Positions 51,737-60,460 of a DNA stretch of 64,000 nt are shown here, one piece after another (position 1 is the stretch's first letter; every line of letters begins with the position of its first letter). Below the pieces are notes generated by a model. The model saw nothing but the letters and a program-made list of their open reading frames with translations, was not told where the DNA came from and did not search any database. This DNA is from an uncultured Candidatus Poseidoniales archaeon (GTDB taxonomy: Archaea; Thermoplasmatota; Poseidoniia; Poseidoniales; Poseidoniaceae): positions 1-64,000 of the forward strand of contig CAJJCP010000007.1 of NCBI GenBank assembly GCA_905182715.1, in the 5' to 3' direction. The translations under genes and the position numbers were made by a program.

Positions 51737-52570
51737 ATGCATCGCCGTGCATCACTTCCAGCACGCATCAATGTTTTAGGTGAACATACAGATTATGCCG
51801 GGGGTCTCGCACTTCCCTTTGCAACTCACCTCCGTTTAACCTTGAATGCCTTCTCATTAGAGGAGGGATACGAGGGTGATGCTACAATCATTGAATTATG
51901 GCGTGCAGCGGGTGGCTGGCCAGCACGTTTGAATGTAGAGAGTCAAATCCCCATTGGTGTTGGAATGTCCTCGTCTGCTGCCTTATGTTTGGCAGTCGTA
52001 TTGTGTGTAAACGGTTCAATGAAGCCTTTGGCTGCATGCTTGGAAGCGCAAAGAATCGAACATCAGGTTCTCAAAACACCGTGTGGCCTTTTGGACCAAA
52101 TGGCGATGATGTTCGCAAAAGACGGATGTGCAACGCTGATTGATTTCTCAAATCAATCAACTCAATGTGTTATTTTACCTGTTGAATGGATCTTTAAACT
52201 GGTCGACTCAGGAATCCATCGAAATCTAAGTGAGACTTCATATCGAAGTCACATCGGCGATGCCATTCAAGTCGCTCATGTCGAAACGGAAAACCAACGG
52301 GTGAAGTCGGCACTTGGAGCATCGGCTCAAGAACTCGGGTTACTTCTCAACCAATCACATGCTTCACTGCAAACACTTGGCGTGAGTCTTACAGGAATGG
52401 ATGAACAGGTCGCTGTATTGCAACAAACAGACGGTGTACTCGGTGCTCGAATGATGGGTGGTGGGTACGGTGGCATGATTTTGGTCTTGGTGGAGAGTTC
52501 CGAAATCCTACCAGATGCTCAAACTTTTCACCCTTCACAGGGTGGCTTTGTTGAGGAATTCTTCGAGTGA
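51737..52570 (+). CDS. Galactokinase-like GHMP kinase
   Basis: GHMP-family sugar kinase of 277 residues. ARINVLGEHTDYAGGLALP is the galactokinase signature; the ATP-binding motif is IPIGVGMSSSAALCLAVVL; the C-terminal motif 3 is GARMMGGGYGGMILVLV. It is about 80-100 residues shorter than standard galactokinases, mainly through loss of segments between motifs 1 and 3, but all motifs remain. It should make an alpha-sugar-1-phosphate. Its 3' end overlaps by 36 bases the convergent GH1-nucleotidyltransferase gene. Confidence 0.82.
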   Translation: MHRRASLPARINVLGEHTDYAGGLALPFATHLRLTLNAFSLEEGYEGDATIIELWRAAGGWPARLNVESQIPIGVGMSSSAALCLAVVLCVNGSMKPLAACLEAQRIEHQVLKTPCGLLDQMAMMFAKDGCATLIDFSNQSTQCVILPVEWIFKLVDSGIHRNLSETSYRSHIGDAIQVAHVETENQRVKSALGASAQELGLLLNQSHASLQTLGVSLTGMDEQVAVLQQTDGVLGARMMGGGYGGMILVLVESSEILPDAQTFHPSQGGFVEEFFE

Positions 52571-54526
52571 AGCAAGCCGTTCAGGTGTCCCCATATCCCA
52601 AAATTTAGTATTGTCAAGGTGCGTTACTGCCTTTCCAGAAAGGGCGGGATAGACAGTCTCTTCCCAACTCCATTTTCCTTCTTTACCGTACTTGAGTAAA
52701 GTTGATTTTTCGACAACACTGGTTCCAGCTTCGTAACCATTCAGCGTTTGTGACGATTTGGTCTGTTTATCATATTCAATTAATTGCCCATCTTTGTGTT
52801 GGAGGTTCATCGAAGAATGTGCCTCTGTAACCGTCATCGTTAACGGGGAATCCATCGATTGGTGAAGGTTCAACAAAGGAGAGTAATCAACTGGATGTAA
52901 ATCGTCACCCCATACGAGAATGAAACGCTCTTCGAGTAACTCTCGTGCATTCCATAGTGCGCCTCCAGTTCCGAGTGGCTCATGTTCTTGATGAAACGTC
53001 AGAGCCATTCCGGGGTGAGTAATTCCTTCAAACTGTTCTCCAAGATGACCTGTAAGAATTAATGCATGCATACATCCTTGCCGTTGAGCCCAATCAAGAA
53101 TATGATGAAGGATTGGCTTACCGGAAACTTCAATCAAAGATTTTGGGGTTTTTTCAGTTATTTTCCCTAAGCGGGTGCCGAGGCCACCAGCCATGACCAC
53201 AAGTTGAGGGGTTGTATGCGCTTTCACAATCGCAGCATATTCGTGGCCGCTTTCTTTGAGAGTTCTCTTTTTTGTCTCAAAATCAACATGATACAATCCA
53301 AATCTTTGGTCATAACCTTCAGCCCACTCGAAATTATCCATCAAACTCCAATGATAAAAACCACGCACGTCTATTCCGTCCGCAATGGCTTCCGCAGTGA
53401 TGAGCAGATGTCTTCGGATATGCTCAGGGCGCATGTCATCATCGTCATCTGCCACCCCGTTTTCAGTGACGAGAATTGGAATGTTGAGGTCTGTGACCAT
53501 ATCAAAGGCCCTTCGAAGTCCTTCCGCATACATTGGGTATCGGAAATCAGTTCGTTGTTCCCATGGTCGAATTAACGGATCGATTTCAACTTTCGTTGGC
53601 ATGAATGGTGTTGTCAATAAGTGGGTGTAATAGTTGACTCCGATGAAATCACTGCTGCCTTTGAGTCCTTCAATAGGCTTTGAAAAGAGGGCTGATGGCG
53701 GCTTAAACCTTCCATTCTTGAGTCCTTTGAGCCAACAGCGGTTGAACATGCCATCGAGAATTTTCGCCTGCATCCAATGAAGGGGATTCCAACGCCGATA
53801 AGGATCGAAAATATTGATGTTCTTTACCAACCCAATTTGGCATTTTTCTCCATTTTCCATTGCTTTGAGTGTACGGTAGCATTGTGCGTGAGCACGCATT
53901 AAGTTGAGCGACACCGTTCGAACTCGTTTGAACGAGCGAACACCGGGCGGGAATTCACCGAGAACATACCCCATCGTGGCATAGACCGCTGGTTCGTTAA
54001 TTGTACACCACCATTCAACACGGTCGCTAAGGTGTTCAAACATCATTGAGCAAAAGTTGACCCATCCGGCGATGTTTTCTTCTTTTTCAAATCCACCTTG
54101 TTCATCCCACCACAGGGGTTGAGTGAAGTGGTGCAAAGTCACCATTGGTTGGATGCCTTGAATCAATAGTTCATCGACCAAATCCGAATACCACTGGATC
54201 GCTTCAGAATCGAACTGCCCCTCCTCGGGTTCGATTCTCGACCATTCAATTGAAAATCTGTAATGCGACACTCCGAGTTCTTTGATGAGTGTAACATCTT
54301 CTTCTCTCCGATTCCAATGGTCACATGCATCGCCGCTCAATTGTTTGCTTTTCGAACGTGGCTCAAACGCAGACCAATTATTTGTATTCCCTCCTTCAAT
54401 TTGGTGTGAAGCAGTAGCTACACCCCACATGAAATCTTTGGGAAATGCACTCCCGTCTTTCAGTGAACTGTAATCAACAGTATCCCACTGGCGGTGTTCT
54501 TCAGTCCACACATGCTTTCCAAGCAT
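52535..54526 (-). CDS. Glycoside hydrolase family 1 - sugar nucleotidyltransferase fusion
   Basis: Cytoplasmic two-domain protein of 663 residues with no signal peptide. Residues about 30-430 are a GH1 beta-glycosidase: FMWGVATASHQIEG, the acid/base TINEPAVYATMGY, and the nucleophile LVTENGVADDDD. Residues about 440-663 are a nucleotidyltransferase: VVMAGGLGTRLGKITEKTPKSLIEV, GTGGALWNA, GDDLHPVDY and FWDMGTPERL. The two parts are joined by a short linker and both look complete. Start ATG 54,526 gives the usual GH1 leader; GTG 54,574 is the upstream limit. It lies opposite a galactokinase-like gene, so a glycoside to NDP-sugar salvage route is suggested. Confidence 0.85.
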   Translation of the reverse strand: MLGKHVWTEEHRQWDTVDYSSLKDGSAFPKDFMWGVATASHQIEGGNTNNWSAFEPRSKSKQLSGDACDHWNRREEDVTLIKELGVSHYRFSIEWSRIEPEEGQFDSEAIQWYSDLVDELLIQGIQPMVTLHHFTQPLWWDEQGGFEKEENIAGWVNFCSMMFEHLSDRVEWWCTINEPAVYATMGYVLGEFPPGVRSFKRVRTVSLNLMRAHAQCYRTLKAMENGEKCQIGLVKNINIFDPYRRWNPLHWMQAKILDGMFNRCWLKGLKNGRFKPPSALFSKPIEGLKGSSDFIGVNYYTHLLTTPFMPTKVEIDPLIRPWEQRTDFRYPMYAEGLRRAFDMVTDLNIPILVTENGVADDDDDMRPEHIRRHLLITAEAIADGIDVRGFYHWSLMDNFEWAEGYDQRFGLYHVDFETKKRTLKESGHEYAAIVKAHTTPQLVVMAGGLGTRLGKITEKTPKSLIEVSGKPILHHILDWAQRQGCMHALILTGHLGEQFEGITHPGMALTFHQEHEPLGTGGALWNARELLEERFILVWGDDLHPVDYSPLLNLHQSMDSPLTMTVTEAHSSMNLQHKDGQLIEYDKQTKSSQTLNGYEAGTSVVEKSTLLKYGKEGKWSWEETVYPALSGKAVTHLDNTKFWDMGTPERLASLEEFLNKATL

Positions 54527-54584
54527 GAAACAGCCATGAGGTTTTTTGTTCAACAATCCGCTTGTAAAGCGCACATCTTGAAGG

Positions 54585-54655
54585 TGCGGATAGCGGGAGT
54601 CGAACCCGCGACAAGAGGTTGGAAACCTCCTATGTTACCACTACACCATATCCGC
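54585..54655 (-). tRNA. tRNA-Gly (anticodon TCC)
   Basis: Reverse-strand cloverleaf of 71 bases. Acceptor stem GCGGATA/TATCCGC is perfect. Anticodon stem GGAGG/CCTCT with loop TTTCCAA (anticodon TCC), and T-arm CGGG-TTCGACT-CCCG follow. Discriminator A at 54,585. CCA is not encoded. It ends about 58 bases before the glycosidase fusion start. Confidence 0.93.
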
Positions 54656-54719: not shown

Positions 54720-57014
54720 TCACGGCATAGGTGGTCGAGGTGGTGGAGGAGGTGGAACTCTTCCACTGGCTGACAATGCTTGTCGAAGGCGATCTGCTGG
54801 AGGTTCATTGGTTCGTTTCATGCGAGCAGCGATGACTTCACGAGCGTGTTCAACCCGTTCGTCTGCAAGCCGAGACTTCGATGCATTCCCTCGAATGATG
54901 AGCATGCCCATCAAGAAGAAGAGTACAATTCCACCAAGCAAAGCCTGAATAATTGGCATTTCTATAATCTCGCTTAACGCACTTGCGTCATCATCCAGAG
55001 AATCACTTTCATCAACGATTCTGGTATCAAAGACTCTCAAGTTGATTGATGCTGAATCCATGGCAATATCGACGCCAGGTTCTTTGATGACGATATAGAG
55101 ATCGAAATTTCCAATCGCTCTTCCTTCTCCACTGAAGAATATAGTTTGAGTCAAACCAGTTGTTTCAGTAAAGGTCAGAACTTGTATTTGTTCTGAAGCA
55201 ATAATCGAAGAGATTTGCTGCCATTCGACTCGGACCGTTATGTCGTTAAGTTCACTTACAACCGTACAACTGAATGAGAAATAATCTTCCTCAGCCAGGT
55301 TGAGTTGGATATCGGTTGGCGTGCAGATGATTGCACCTTCAGCAATGTTACGTGTTGGGTCATTGATCCAGTGGTCGGGTCTTGAAGCTCCAGATGATTG
55401 GTTATCTCCATATCCATCGCCATCAATATCAACCCATTGTGTAGGCTCGTTCGGGAATGCATCATTCGAGTTTGCATAGCCATCTCCATCCGTATCGATA
55501 CACCCGGGAGCATTTCCAAGTGAAGCCGTTCCGAATGAGGTTGGACAAACATCTCCATCTGTGCCTTGTGGGTTGTCGCCCCATCCGTCACCATCGGTGT
55601 CAAACCATTGAGATGAATCATTATTCCACAAGTCATTGGTATCGCTTGCTCCATCGTTATCTGAATCAATACATCCGTAGACGTCACGGAATGATGTTCC
55701 GATTACAGTTGTACAATTATCGGGCTGTGTTCCGTTTGGATTGTCTCCAAATCCATCACCGTCGATGTCCGACCATTGTGTGGCATCATCTGGGAATAAA
55801 TCACCGCTTTGTGATGAACCATCGTTATCTGCATCCGGACACCCAAAGACGTCGAGGTTTGAGTATCCTTCTTCGGAAGGACAAGAATCAGGTTCTGTTC
55901 CTAAAGGATTTTCACCGTATCCATCGCCGTCACTGTCGTTCCATTGCGTTGGATTCAAAGGAAGCGCATCGGCTCCGTTTGCACTGTTCCAGCCAGACGC
56001 ATTTCCAAATGGAAGCGTTGGGTCTGAATAGCCGTCACCGTCTGTATCTGGGCAGGCATTTCGGTCAACCGTTGAATTTCCTGGTAAGTTGATACAATCG
56101 TCTTCAAGGTCATCAAATCCATCTCCGTCTGTATCTTGAGTGCGAGTCGGGTCGTTCGGGAAAGCATCGCTTTCGTTTGACATTCCGTCACCATCGTCAT
56201 CGACACATCCGTAGCGGTCAATCGTTGAGTTTCCAGGAACACCAGGGCATGCATCCGGTTGAGGACCGGTTGCATTGTCACCGTAGCCATCACCGTCTTG
56301 GTCAAGCCATTGATTGGCAAGGTTTGGCAGAAGGTCGATCACATCGTCCCATCCATCTCCATCGGTGTCAGGGCAGCCCATACGGTTGCCGAGAGTTGAA
56401 TTTCCAGCGAGGGTTATGCACGCATCAGGCGTTGTTCCACCCGAGTTATCTCCATATCCATCACCGTCAATATCAGACCATTGGGTTGAATCGTTGACTT
56501 GAGCATCCTCTTGGTCCGCCCAACCGTCTTGGTCAGTGTCCACACATCCAAGGGTATTATTTTGCCATGAATTGCCTGCAATCGAGGGACAATCATCAGC
56601 TAGATCTCCAGTGGCGTTATCGCCAAATCCATCACCATCTGCATCGCTCCATTGGGTGGGGTCAGTTTTGAAAGCATCTGAACCATTATCAGTTGGTGTC
56701 CAATTTGGGTCGGGGTCGGAATATCCATCGCCGTCGGTATCAGGGCAACCCATACGGTCGACCGTTGAGTTTCCGTTAAAAGGTTGGACACGCATCGTCG
56801 ATTTGGTCAGCAATGCCATCATTATCATAATCAGACCATCGGAGTGGATCACTTGGATGGGTATCTGCTCCATTTGCCATCGTGAATCCGAGGTCGGGGT
56901 CGCTGTATGTATCGCCGTCTGAATCTGGGCAGCCGTATCGGTCTCCCGAAGAGGTTCCAAGAGTGGAGACACAGCCATCAGGGAATACGCCGGCTGGATT
57001 GTCTCCATAGCCAT
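54720..57014 (-). CDS. C-terminal TSP3 fragment of a frameshifted subtilase
   Basis: Third piece of one broken gene. Only about 56,783 downward is likely coding in this frame: the text joins at CPTF/NGNSTVDRMGCPD when one T of a TTTT run (56,778-56,781) is removed. Residues then run through many TSP3 repeats (TDGDGYSD, DNDGASDTND), a final beta-rich domain (about residues 530-660), one membrane segment (IIQALLGGIVLFFLMGMLII) and a Pro-rich tail (PPPPPPRPPMP). This frame is the same as that of the N-terminal piece. Confidence 0.75.
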   Translation of the reverse strand: MAMETIQPAYSLMAVSPLLEPLRETDTAAQIQTAIHTATPTSDSRWQMEQIPIQVIHSDGLIMIMMALLTKSTMRVQPFNGNSTVDRMGCPDTDGDGYSDPDPNWTPTDNGSDAFKTDPTQWSDADGDGFGDNATGDLADDCPSIAGNSWQNNTLGCVDTDQDGWADQEDAQVNDSTQWSDIDGDGYGDNSGGTTPDACITLAGNSTLGNRMGCPDTDGDGWDDVIDLLPNLANQWLDQDGDGYGDNATGPQPDACPGVPGNSTIDRYGCVDDDGDGMSNESDAFPNDPTRTQDTDGDGFDDLEDDCINLPGNSTVDRNACPDTDGDGYSDPTLPFGNASGWNSANGADALPLNPTQWNDSDGDGYGENPLGTEPDSCPSEEGYSNLDVFGCPDADNDGSSQSGDLFPDDATQWSDIDGDGFGDNPNGTQPDNCTTVIGTSFRDVYGCIDSDNDGASDTNDLWNNDSSQWFDTDGDGWGDNPQGTDGDVCPTSFGTASLGNAPGCIDTDGDGYANSNDAFPNEPTQWVDIDGDGYGDNQSSGASRPDHWINDPTRNIAEGAIICTPTDIQLNLAEEDYFSFSCTVVSELNDITVRVEWQQISSIIASEQIQVLTFTETTGLTQTIFFSGEGRAIGNFDLYIVIKEPGVDIAMDSASINLRVFDTRIVDESDSLDDDASALSEIIEMPIIQALLGGIVLFFLMGMLIIRGNASKSRLADERVEHAREVIAARMKRTNEPPADRLRQALSASGRVPPPPPPRPPMP

Positions 57015-58110
57015 CTGAATCCGTATCTACCCACTGGGTTGGTTCGTTTGGCCATACGTCTGCGCCATTGGTTGTCGTCCAAACTGAGCCGTTGTTCCCT
57101 AACGGGTCAGGGTCTGAATATCCATCGGCATCGGAATCTGGACAACCCAATCGGTCTTGGGAAGAAGTTCCTGTAACACTAACACAGGCGTCAGGGTTTA
57201 AGCCGGTAGCATTGTCACCGTAATTATCAGAATCTGTATCCATCCACTGGGTCTTATCAATTGGGAATGCATCAGCAGTTCCAATTGGATGGGCCGGCCA
57301 ACCTAAAGTTGGGTCCGAATAGCCATCTTCATCACTGTCTGAGCAACCAAAGCGGTCGATGGTCGAACGTTTTCCTGTCGCAGCATCGTTGACGCACGAA
57401 TCAGGGTTGTTTCCAGTTTGGTTATCTCCATAGCCATCACCATCAGTATCGAGCCATTGGGTGATGTCATTCGGGAATGCGTCAGCAGTACCAGTTGGGT
57501 GGGCTAACCAGATGAGATCAGCATCTGAATAGCCGTCACCGTCGGTGTCCGTACACCCAATGCGGTCTTGTGAAGAGGTGCCTGAGGTTGTTGGGCATGC
57601 ATCGCCTGAGTTCGCAGGAGGTGGATTGTCTCCGAACCCATCGCCGTCAGTGTCGTTCCATTGCGTGCTGTCTCCGAGGAAAGCGTCTGCGCCGTTGGAA
57701 ACGAGCCAAACTGAACCATTGGTTCCACTTGGGTCAGGGTCGCTGTAGGTATCGCCATCTTCATCAGGGCAACCGTTTCGATCACCTGTGGAAGTTCCTA
57801 CCACATTGATACATCCATCTGCGCCTTGTGCGATGGTCCATCCTCCAAGATTACTTTCGGCATCTGAGAATGTATCCATATCTGTGTCGACACAGCCGTA
57901 TCGGTCACCCGTGGAAGTTCCATCGATTGAAGGGCAACTGTCAGGATTGTTTCCTGCCAAGTTATCTCCATAGCCATCACCATCTTGGTCAGCCCATTGT
58001 GTGATTTCGGTAATGAACGCATCTGCACCTTGAGCGATGGTCCAATTACTGGCGGGGTCTGAATATCCATCTCCGTCAGAATCAGGACATCCTTGTCGGT
58101 CGTGAATTGA
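55380..58110 (-). repeat. Long TSP3-repeat coding array in the subtilase gene
   Basis: More than 20 degenerate units encode the D-x-D-x-D-G-x-x-D motif, many separated by variations of TQWxDxDGDGYGDN. The array is about 900 residues long, calcium binding by analogy. Codon-level similarity between units is high, so homologous unequal exchange could alter unit number. Confidence 0.7.
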
Positions 58111-58992
58111 AATGCCGAAGGTAAATGCACATTGGTCGTTTTCGTCTACAGTTCCATCAAAGTCAGCATCTTGAGTCAAGTTGACCATGAGATAGCCAGA
58201 ATTGACAGCGACTGAAAAGAATTGAGGACCACTTGCAACCGATGTACCTAGCACGTGAATCTCCCAAACTCCTTGAGCAGGTGAGGTAAAAGTCAATCCC
58301 TTGAGATTGTTGATACTGTCTGACAGGTTGGTCCAGGTTCCACTTGGGTCTTTGATTGAAAGATCTACATCGTTGACCAAATTAGCAGAGACTACAGGGC
58401 TACTTGTAGCATCGTTGTATGAAAGCATAATTTGCATTGTTGGTGCTGCGTTCGGGACGCTAATGCTCCATCCGCGTTCTTCACCAGTCGATAACGATTC
58501 GCGGTCAACAAATGATGCGGAAGCGGCATCAAGTAGGTGAATTCGCCCCCAACCTTCGTGATTGTTTGGGGCGGTTTCACCAGCCCCATTTGTAACATCA
58601 TTGTATTGTCCCATCATGTCGACGGCTGAAGTTGCCAAGATTCCTTTGACCAAGGCGGACGAAGGGTTGGAATGGTTGACGTTTTCGATCAAATGTTGTA
58701 ACAGCAGGGCAGCTGCCCCCGCCGAAACCGGAGTGGCCATGCTTGTTCCACTCATGAATTGGTAATCGCCACTTCCGCCTGAATAACGAGATTTCGTAGA
58801 AAGAATATTGGTGCCTGGTGCGGAGAAATCCGGTTTAAGTCGATTATCATCCGTCGGGCCTCTTGAAGAGAAGGTTGCCATTCCAGATATGTTATCTCGA
58901 TGCCCATGCTGGCCATGAACCTGTAGCATTGATCGTAAGTTCTCACTTGCTCCGATTGAGATGACGTTTTTTGCTGTCGCAGGTGAACCCAT
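56776..58992 (-). CDS. Middle fragment of a frameshifted subtilase (catalytic Ser and TSP3)
   Basis: Second piece of the broken gene. It opens at the point where the first frame is lost and reads GSPATAKNVISIGAS, then the subtilase catalytic-serine motif MSGTSMATPVSAGAAALL, a P-domain-like region (about 160-270) and TSP3 repeats. It ends at a TAA (56,776-56,778) created by a TTTT run. It is in a different reading frame from the N- and C-terminal pieces, so two compensating one-base changes separate it. Confidence 0.75.
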   Translation of the reverse strand: MGSPATAKNVISIGASENLRSMLQVHGQHGHRDNISGMATFSSRGPTDDNRLKPDFSAPGTNILSTKSRYSGGSGDYQFMSGTSMATPVSAGAAALLLQHLIENVNHSNPSSALVKGILATSAVDMMGQYNDVTNGAGETAPNNHEGWGRIHLLDAASASFVDRESLSTGEERGWSISVPNAAPTMQIMLSYNDATSSPVVSANLVNDVDLSIKDPSGTWTNLSDSINNLKGLTFTSPAQGVWEIHVLGTSVASGPQFFSVAVNSGYLMVNLTQDADFDGTVDENDQCAFTFGISIHDRQGCPDSDGDGYSDPASNWTIAQGADAFITEITQWADQDGDGYGDNLAGNNPDSCPSIDGTSTGDRYGCVDTDMDTFSDAESNLGGWTIAQGADGCINVVGTSTGDRNGCPDEDGDTYSDPDPSGTNGSVWLVSNGADAFLGDSTQWNDTDGDGFGDNPPPANSGDACPTTSGTSSQDRIGCTDTDGDGYSDADLIWLAHPTGTADAFPNDITQWLDTDGDGYGDNQTGNNPDSCVNDAATGKRSTIDRFGCSDSDEDGYSDPTLGWPAHPIGTADAFPIDKTQWMDTDSDNYGDNATGLNPDACVSVTGTSSQDRLGCPDSDADGYSDPDPLGNNGSVWTTTNGADVWPNEPTQWVDTDSDGYGDNPAGVFPDGCVSTLGTSSGDRYGCPDSDGDTYSDPDLGFTMANGADTHPSDPLRWSDYDNDGIADQIDDACPTF

Positions 58993-60359
58993 CTGTCTAC
59001 ATCAATTTCACCATCGGCATTTGAATCGCTACCCGAGTTTCCTGCTGCAAACAAAATGACTAACTCGTCATTTATCTTCGCAGACATATCGACTTTCATC
59101 GAATCACTCGTATAGGTACCATACACTCCCGGAAAGCCTCTGCTCCAAGAGTTGGTATGGACTCGACTACCGTTTGCAACTGCTAAATCAAAAAGGTCTC
59201 CAATATCATTTGGAATGCCGGCAGGTGAGGATCCTTGGCCAATAGCCTGGAATAATAATTGTGCTTCAGGTGCCATTCCAGCATTGACTCCACTGCTGTC
59301 GGTGCCATCTCCAAGAACTGAACCGGCCACATGCGTTCCATGGCCGTTGAAATCTTCAGGTCCATCGTCACAAGAGCCAGGGCTCCCACCTGACCAGGCA
59401 CAACTCGAAGAAGGGATTGGCATAGAAAGAATACCTTTGATGTGGTCTTTGAAATCGGGATGCATATTTGAATTATTTACTCCATTGTCGAGCCCTGAGT
59501 CCGCTACTGTTACGATGATTCCACTGCCATCTAGCCCATTCCAAGAGGAGTTTACATTTCCCATCTTTGTGGAATCTTGAACGTCATCAGCATGAAGGAT
59601 TGTCGCTGCAACTGCATTTGTATATTGAGCCATATAAGTCATATCAATGAATTCAATTCCACCTTGCTTAGCAAGCCATACGATGCCACTTGTTTCGGCA
59701 AGAACAGTAGCGAACCTTTCACTTACCGAATCGACAACGATATCCTTTCTTTGGAATATGCCTTCAGGTAATTCATCACCAGAAAGAACCAGATCTACAA
59801 TCGCTTTTCCTTCCATCGAATAACTAAACTCACTGTAATCTACTGTGCCTGTTATGGCCTCAATAAGGATGTTGCGGATTTTGTCTGAAGGATCAAGTTG
59901 TACAATTCCTTCGACTTCAAGTTCTGCTAACATTTCAATTGAAGTACCTTGGATTTCACAATGGAATCCATTCGGAGGAAGGAAAGAGAAACAATCAATC
60001 CCTGCTTCATTAAGTTCGTAAAACCACTCAGTGGGGACAGGGTATTCATGTGTTAGAACATACCATCCATTTAGATTCGATGATTGCTCTGTCCATTCGG
60101 ACCAATCTTCGAGAGCCACAACACCTGCATTTCGATACAAGAGATTGAGTTCTCCCGCACCTTGATCAGGATGAAACCAGCCGTTTGAAGGACTTTGAGA
60201 AGGTGAAAGTCCTATTTGATTTAATAAATCTAAATCTTGTTCAGTATCGAGGGAGATTTCAGGTCCTGAAGGGGATGCAGCGTAGGTAATCGGGGCGAGA
60301 ACCTGTAGGAGCATGAGGGCGGCGAAAGTGATTGCTCGCACGGAGGGGGTAGGCGTCAT
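58752..60359 (-). CDS. N-terminal fragment of a frameshifted S8 subtilisin-like protease
   Basis: First piece of a secreted subtilase. Signal peptide (MTPTPSVRAITFAALMLLQV). A propeptide-like region follows, then the catalytic Asp (VTVADSGLDNGV) and His (NGHGTHVAGSVLG), and the oxyanion region NSWSRGFPG. Meaningful coding is lost after about 58,995 (DVDR); the last about 80 residues in this frame are unlikely to be real. The active-site serine is encoded in the next frame. ATG 60,359 is preferred over 60,386 because it starts the signal peptide. Confidence 0.8.
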   Translation of the reverse strand: MTPTPSVRAITFAALMLLQVLAPITYAASPSGPEISLDTEQDLDLLNQIGLSPSQSPSNGWFHPDQGAGELNLLYRNAGVVALEDWSEWTEQSSNLNGWYVLTHEYPVPTEWFYELNEAGIDCFSFLPPNGFHCEIQGTSIEMLAELEVEGIVQLDPSDKIRNILIEAITGTVDYSEFSYSMEGKAIVDLVLSGDELPEGIFQRKDIVVDSVSERFATVLAETSGIVWLAKQGGIEFIDMTYMAQYTNAVAATILHADDVQDSTKMGNVNSSWNGLDGSGIIVTVADSGLDNGVNNSNMHPDFKDHIKGILSMPIPSSSCAWSGGSPGSCDDGPEDFNGHGTHVAGSVLGDGTDSSGVNAGMAPEAQLLFQAIGQGSSPAGIPNDIGDLFDLAVANGSRVHTNSWSRGFPGVYGTYTSDSMKVDMSAKINDELVILFAAGNSGSDSNADGEIDVDRWVHLRQQKTSSQSEQVRTYDQCYRFMASMGIEITYLEWQPSLQEARRMIIDLNRISPHQAPIFFLRNLVIQAEVAITNS

Positions 60360-60460
60360 ATGTACCAATAAACGCAACTCCCACATGAATGATTTGATTA
60401 CAAGTCGGACATGTGTGGCTGTTAAGAGGGTTCAAGAAGCACGGATTCGGCGGTTGACTT

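Follow-up and report, generated by a model that had tools for sequence, protein, structure and literature searches.

A glycosidase–nucleotidyltransferase fusion with a galactokinase-like partner in Marine Group IIa archaea and its possible role in nucleotide-sugar salvage

An intact gene in the window, a 64,000-nucleotide stretch from an uncultured Marine Group II (MGII) archaeon, joins a GH1 glycosidase in frame to a sugar nucleotidyltransferase (NTPT). The active sites of both halves are conserved, as is the convergent gene for a galactokinase-like kinase, and GalT is absent from the genomes searched for it. We consider it fairly probable that the fused protein works in the cytoplasm as a bifunctional enzyme that salvages nucleotide sugars, acting on a route from β-glycoside to free sugar, sugar-1-phosphate and NDP-sugar. 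More tentatively, we suggest that it is the first glycoside hydrolase to be covalently coupled to an NDP-sugar pyrophosphorylase and that, together with the kinase, it makes up a cytoplasmic module for salvage from glycoside to NDP-sugar.

MGII archaea are uncultured and among the most abundant archaea of the surface ocean. In a survey of North Sea metagenome-assembled genomes (MAGs), one GH1 was the only glycoside hydrolase reported for MGIIa, and it was taken to process polysaccharides (PMC6864105); another survey took an MGII β-glucosidase to be extracellular (PMC6741140). In the fused lineages, the architecture says otherwise: judged from its sequence, the GH1 should lie in the cytoplasm, and it is attached to an enzyme that activates sugars. 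A term search for galactokinase in the texts of two published MGIIa surveys came back empty. An earlier note on this DNA knew of no described protein of this kind; we likewise found no glycoside hydrolase–nucleotidyltransferase fusion described in the papers we searched, although a negative search of this sort is weak evidence. The enzyme families are known, and it is the glycosidase–pyrophosphorylase architecture that is new, though its sequences have been public for years. If the salvage reading is correct, the glycosidase reported as MGIIa's only one would be a nucleotide-sugar salvage enzyme and not an extracellular degrader of polysaccharides. This bears on the carbon that MGII archaea use, offers a short pathway that can be tested, and would provide a natural example of glycoside cleavage coupled to sugar-nucleotide synthesis.

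The fused gene and its kinase partner

The fused gene was called as an open reading frame at 52535–54526 on the minus strand. It starts with the ATG at 54526, although an in-frame GTG at 54574 is a possible alternative, and runs for 663 residues with no internal stop. The earlier note's description of one polypeptide with two intact enzymes holds, and both Pfam domains score above their cut-offs. Glyco_hydro_1 matches residues 27–437 (E 1.8e-96; PF00232, 323.8 bits against a cut-off of 22.6, profile positions 4–451 of 453), and NTP_transferase matches residues 443–568 (E 3.7e-12; PF00483, 46.8 against 21.2), where the signature motifs add to the assignment. The GH1 domain (53216–54448, minus strand) contains the acid/base E178 in TINEP and the nucleophile E355 in TENG. 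The NTPT domain (residues 441–655; 52562–53206, minus strand) contains AGGLGTRL at 446–453, GDD at 540–542 and WDMGTP at 643–648. In an alignment of 21 fused proteins with 76–93% identity, E178 and E355 are invariant, as are the AGGLGTRL, PK, GDD and DMGTP residues of the NTPT half. The Asn of TENG is the sole non-invariant residue among the named motifs, and it is at least 90% conserved.

Against the GH1 β-glucosidase equivalog TIGR03356, the protein scores 333.9 bits with a cut-off of 478.5; therefore, the domain can be called GH1 but not assigned a specificity. The NTPT falls below every curated equivalog cut-off, including that for HddC (64.7 bits against 300), a profile on which a solo NTPT homologue scores 82.8 bits. 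The best structural matches to the NTPT profile are the HddC-type proteins 5xhw (E 7e-33) and 6jq8 (E 1.5e-32), followed by mannose-1-phosphate guanylyltransferase and then others including MurU.

AlphaFold2 produced a compact two-domain model from a 67-sequence alignment (mean pLDDT 92.8, pTM 0.90), superseding a poor run on only 21 close sequences (pLDDT 59). The top structural match of the model is 1vff, the Pyrococcus horikoshii β-glycosidase BGPh (TM 0.90 over the target), which is also the nearest single-domain sequence match of the GH1 half at about 39% identity. We looked for an N-terminal hydrophobic segment in the GH1 half and found none. Given this result and the fusion to an NTP-dependent enzyme, the GH1 half should be cytoplasmic.

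The kinase gene (51737–52570, plus strand; 277 residues) converges with the fused gene. Its product had been described as a compact GHMP kinase with a galactokinase signature, and it matches GHMP_kinases_N (PF00288), GHMP_kinases_C (PF08544) and GalKase_gal_bdg (PF10509), all above cut-off. Residues R10, E16, H17, D19 and D120 are invariant and Y169 is at least 90% conserved; the galactokinase signature GEHTDY, the GMSSSAA loop, the catalytic CGLLDQ and GARMMGGG are all present. Among PDB proteins, its profile is nearest to galactokinases, far above other GHMP kinases. However, its scores against galactokinase equivalogs span 96–140 bits where the cut-offs are 226–509 (TIGR00131, 108.3 against 226.65; NF003006, 140.3 against 443). 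With scores so far below the equivalog cut-offs, the kinase and the NTPT are divergent subfamilies.

The 3' ends of the two genes overlap by 36 bp (52535–52570), as previously noted, and the overlap is conserved in fused and unfused pairs: it measures 33 or 36 bp in all fused loci but one and 30–39 bp in unfused pairs. It would permit antisense pairing, but its retention, which extends to unfused pairs and to several loci, could be due simply to the overlap of two coding sequences.

The fusion occurs in 54 of the 171 genomes of Ca. Poseidoniaceae (MGIIa), spread over three genera (g1, g11 and g14); in the rest of the family, the GH1 and NTPT domains are separate. Within the window's own genus, 27 of 63 genomes are fused, so the concern that all close relatives might keep the domains as separate genes does not apply. 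The fusion and the kinase co-occur: 52 of the 54 fused genomes contain the kinase, and the other two stop at a contig edge. The kinase also accompanies the NTPT in 17/18 solo-NTPT genomes of the family (the exception is G031). In the two genomes with a kinase and no NTPT (G002 and G078), the kinase match is partial and seems to lie at the end of a contig. Thus, the kinase and the NTPT form a genetically inseparable pair in this family. GH1 follows them even where it is not fused: it is present in 14/19 unfused genomes with the kinase compared to 24/98 without it (Fisher p 7e-5, without correction for phylogeny). Genus g18 retains a standalone GH1 and neither the kinase nor the NTPT, indicating that GH1 can serve alone, in another role.

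In a 390-genome sample of the phylum, we found no kinase outside the order and no fusion outside the family. Other phyla were sampled through a contig scan only, in which the bacterial matches were GH1 without this NTPT. A scan of viral contigs gave no relative, and we rejected a viral origin. One contig labelled uncultured Rhodobiaceae bacterium (L120, CALDQY010000023.1) carries the archaeal cassette of kinase and fused gene and is probably a mis-binned archaeal contig.

A proposed salvage route

In the route that we propose, the GH1 half would cleave an imported or internal β-glycoside and release a free hexose. Its likeliest substrate would be a β-galactoside or β-glucoside that is small enough for import or has a hydrophobic aglycone. 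The galactokinase-like kinase would then phosphorylate the hexose at C1, most likely yielding Gal-1-P. Galactokinases are C1 kinases, and the product would therefore suit the NTPT half, which would combine sugar-1-phosphate and NTP into an NDP-sugar that could feed glycan or glycolipid synthesis.

The last of these steps would stand in for a missing GalT. No GalT (PF01087), the enzyme by which we tested for the Leloir pathway, was found in 60 genomes, while 6/14 controls matched; GalE (TIGR01179) was above cut-off in 0/40 genomes and in 8/14 controls. With neither enzyme found, the kinase–NTPT pair plausibly replaces the middle step of the Leloir pathway. Leloir catabolism itself is not supported by these counts, and the little sugar that these archaea release probably ends up in new building blocks instead of being burned.

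The three-step pathway had been proposed from motifs. Co-occurrence of the genes, absence of GalT and the conserved galactokinase residues now strengthen it, whereas the missed equivalog cut-offs weigh against assigning its steps, and it keeps its conditional standing. The evidence against the salvage model also includes the lone GH1 of genus g18 and incomplete MAGs, the window's own among them. Galactose is favoured as the sugar by the signature and residues of the kinase, together with the annotation, in MGIIa, of a subunit of a galactose permease (Tully 2019, PMC6336850). Because GH1 enzymes are promiscuous, we can only infer galactose, just as we infer the nucleotide used, the direction of flux and any gain from physical coupling or channelling.

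The main rival to this scheme concerns the substrate. BGPh, the nearest characterised GH1, is associated with membranes and prefers long alkyl glucosides (PMC4687101). A membrane-associated enzyme of this type could strip an alkyl or isoprenoid glycoside, either the cell's own or algal, leaving the kinase and NTPT to recycle the sugar. The 1vff match in both fold and single-domain sequence favours such glycolipid turnover, as does the CDP-alcohol phosphatidyltransferase gene that lies near the standalone GH1 genes. However, substrate preference does not carry over at about 39% identity, and the phosphatidyltransferase gene shares only a neighbourhood, not an operon, with GH1. We regard this alternative as unlikely, though it deserves to be kept in view.

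Somewhat less likely, in our judgement, is that the kinase and NTPT activate a sugar other than galactose, such as a heptose or mannose derivative (compare HddA/HddC), with the GH1 unrelated or only co-regulated. The NTPT's ranking of HddC-type structures first and mannose-1-phosphate guanylyltransferase next fits this idea. The kinase does not: among PDB proteins, galactokinases match it far better than other GHMP kinases do. The retention of the fusion in three genera also speaks for functions that are linked.

Junction and history of the fusion

The two domains meet at residues 437–440 (53207–53218, minus strand), where a GH1 helix passes into an NTPT strand without a linker. In the AlphaFold2 model, the last GH1 helix (425–436) is followed by four residues and then the first NTPT strand (441–445). 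Standalone GH1 proteins of relatives stop where the fused GH1 stops, and standalone NTPTs start at (M)PQxVxxAGGLGTRLG, the start of the second domain in the fusion. Solo ends and starts thus coincide with the domain borders, and the fusion is end to end. A few fused homologues retain a Met at the former NTPT start, which reads as a fossil start codon.

In trees, a single clade (99/92) unites the fused GH1 domains, with the solo GH1 clade as its sister. Solo NTPTs are nested among fused copies, and a single fused NTPT clade is not rejected, but only at the borderline (p-AU 0.0501). Fission or recombination may have occurred in some lineages. The nearest relatives of the window's sequence differ by part: identities to L089 are 96% for GH1, 78% for NTPT and 70% for the kinase, and those to L087 are 92%, 94% and 89%. 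The differing relatives of the two halves suggest homologous recombination inside the fused gene, which could blur the domain trees.

In unfused relatives, an NTPT gene of about 225–247 codons converges with the same kinase and GH1 lies elsewhere. The pair is more loosely linked in two genomes of the sister-family genus g9: about 265 bp separate the convergent kinase and NTPT genes in G417, and the two genes lie on different contigs in G051. Several congeners have an SDR gene, nearest to HpnA (hopanoid-associated sugar epimerase), beside the standalone GH1 (L045 6522–7550; L048 6383–7420; L049 9766–10794).

The cassette of g1 lies between genes for a leucyl aminopeptidase and for a TSP3-repeat protein, beside a tRNA-Gly (TCC) (54583–54655, minus strand) that adjoins the two genes in the window's genus and serves here as context only. 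The TSP3-repeat, subtilase-like gene (54720–60386, minus strand) is split into three overlapping reading frames, while relatives have one of about 1,900 residues; it contains two frameshifts, either genuine or from assembling a repetitive gene. In g14 and g11, the kinase and fusion are found at other loci, still together. Two congeners lack the cassette, although their aminopeptidases are 99% and 93% identical. The first, G028, whose aminopeptidase gene is the one 99% identical to the window's, retains remnants resembling both gene starts (L187 9401–9520), which correspond to window positions 51737–51819 and 54492–54526. Because they are left only about 30 nt apart, they indicate deletion of the cassette. 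These comparisons among genera and congeners indicate that the kinase and the fused gene are acquired, relocated and lost together.

A chance rearrangement could have brought two housekeeping activities into one protein that was then tolerated and passed on without functional coupling; the single GH1 clade, which may record one event, and a junction that brings no linker and no new domain would both suit this account. We give it little chance. The fusion has survived relocation of the cassette across three genera, kinase, NTPT and GH1 co-occur even as separate genes, and, with the two domains at different loci in congeners, there is no clear sign of a simple deletion that merged adjacent genes.

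The junction evolves as ordinary coding sequence, since 19 aligned fused genes have no indels, junction included, and its pN/pS (residues 421–446, 0.22) lies between those of GH1 (0.14) and NTPT (0.24). The suspected frameshift or chimeric join, favoured by nothing except the draft state of the window's MAG (36 contigs, 73% complete), is virtually inconceivable and was rejected, as intact full-length homologues occur in about 50 other genomes, the single-contig 2.06-Mb MG-II chromosome CM001443.1 among them. Both apparent exceptions have an explanation: in G019 the contig breaks, leaving identical ends of 141 bp, and G086 has an N-run.

Comparison with known systems

Each part of the proposed salvage route has a known counterpart. 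Like BGPh (1vff), the GH1 half is a compact barrel of about 410 residues with the catalytic Glu pair, a glucosidase-type NFEW motif and no 6-phosphate site; unlike the MGII domain, to which it is 39% identical, BGPh is a single-domain protein. The NTPT half resembles HddC/MurU-type enzymes (5xhw, 6jq8 and 8hhd), which are single domains of about 225 residues with GGLGTRL, PK, GD and DMGTP-type motifs and work with a sugar kinase in their pathways. It differs from them in its fusion to GH1, its galactokinase-like partner and its scores below the equivalog cut-offs. The kinase shares GEHTDY, GMSSSAA, CGLLDQ and GARMMGGG with galactokinases but has 277 residues where they have about 350–390, falls below the curated cut-offs and, compared to human GALK1, is without two internal stretches of about 35 residues.

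As a route, the closest parallel is the Isselbacher-type pair of galactokinase and UDP-sugar pyrophosphorylase in plants and Leishmania, which likewise takes galactose to NDP-galactose independently of GalT. Here, the pyrophosphorylase would be a small prokaryotic NTPT that is physically joined to a glycosidase. Successive steps of sugar-nucleotide salvage are also fused in fucokinase/GDP-fucose pyrophosphorylase and in the zebrafish glucuronokinase/putative pyrophosphorylase (PMC3938481). In those proteins, it is the kinase that is joined to the pyrophosphorylase, whereas in MGIIa the glycosidase is joined to it and the kinase stands apart.
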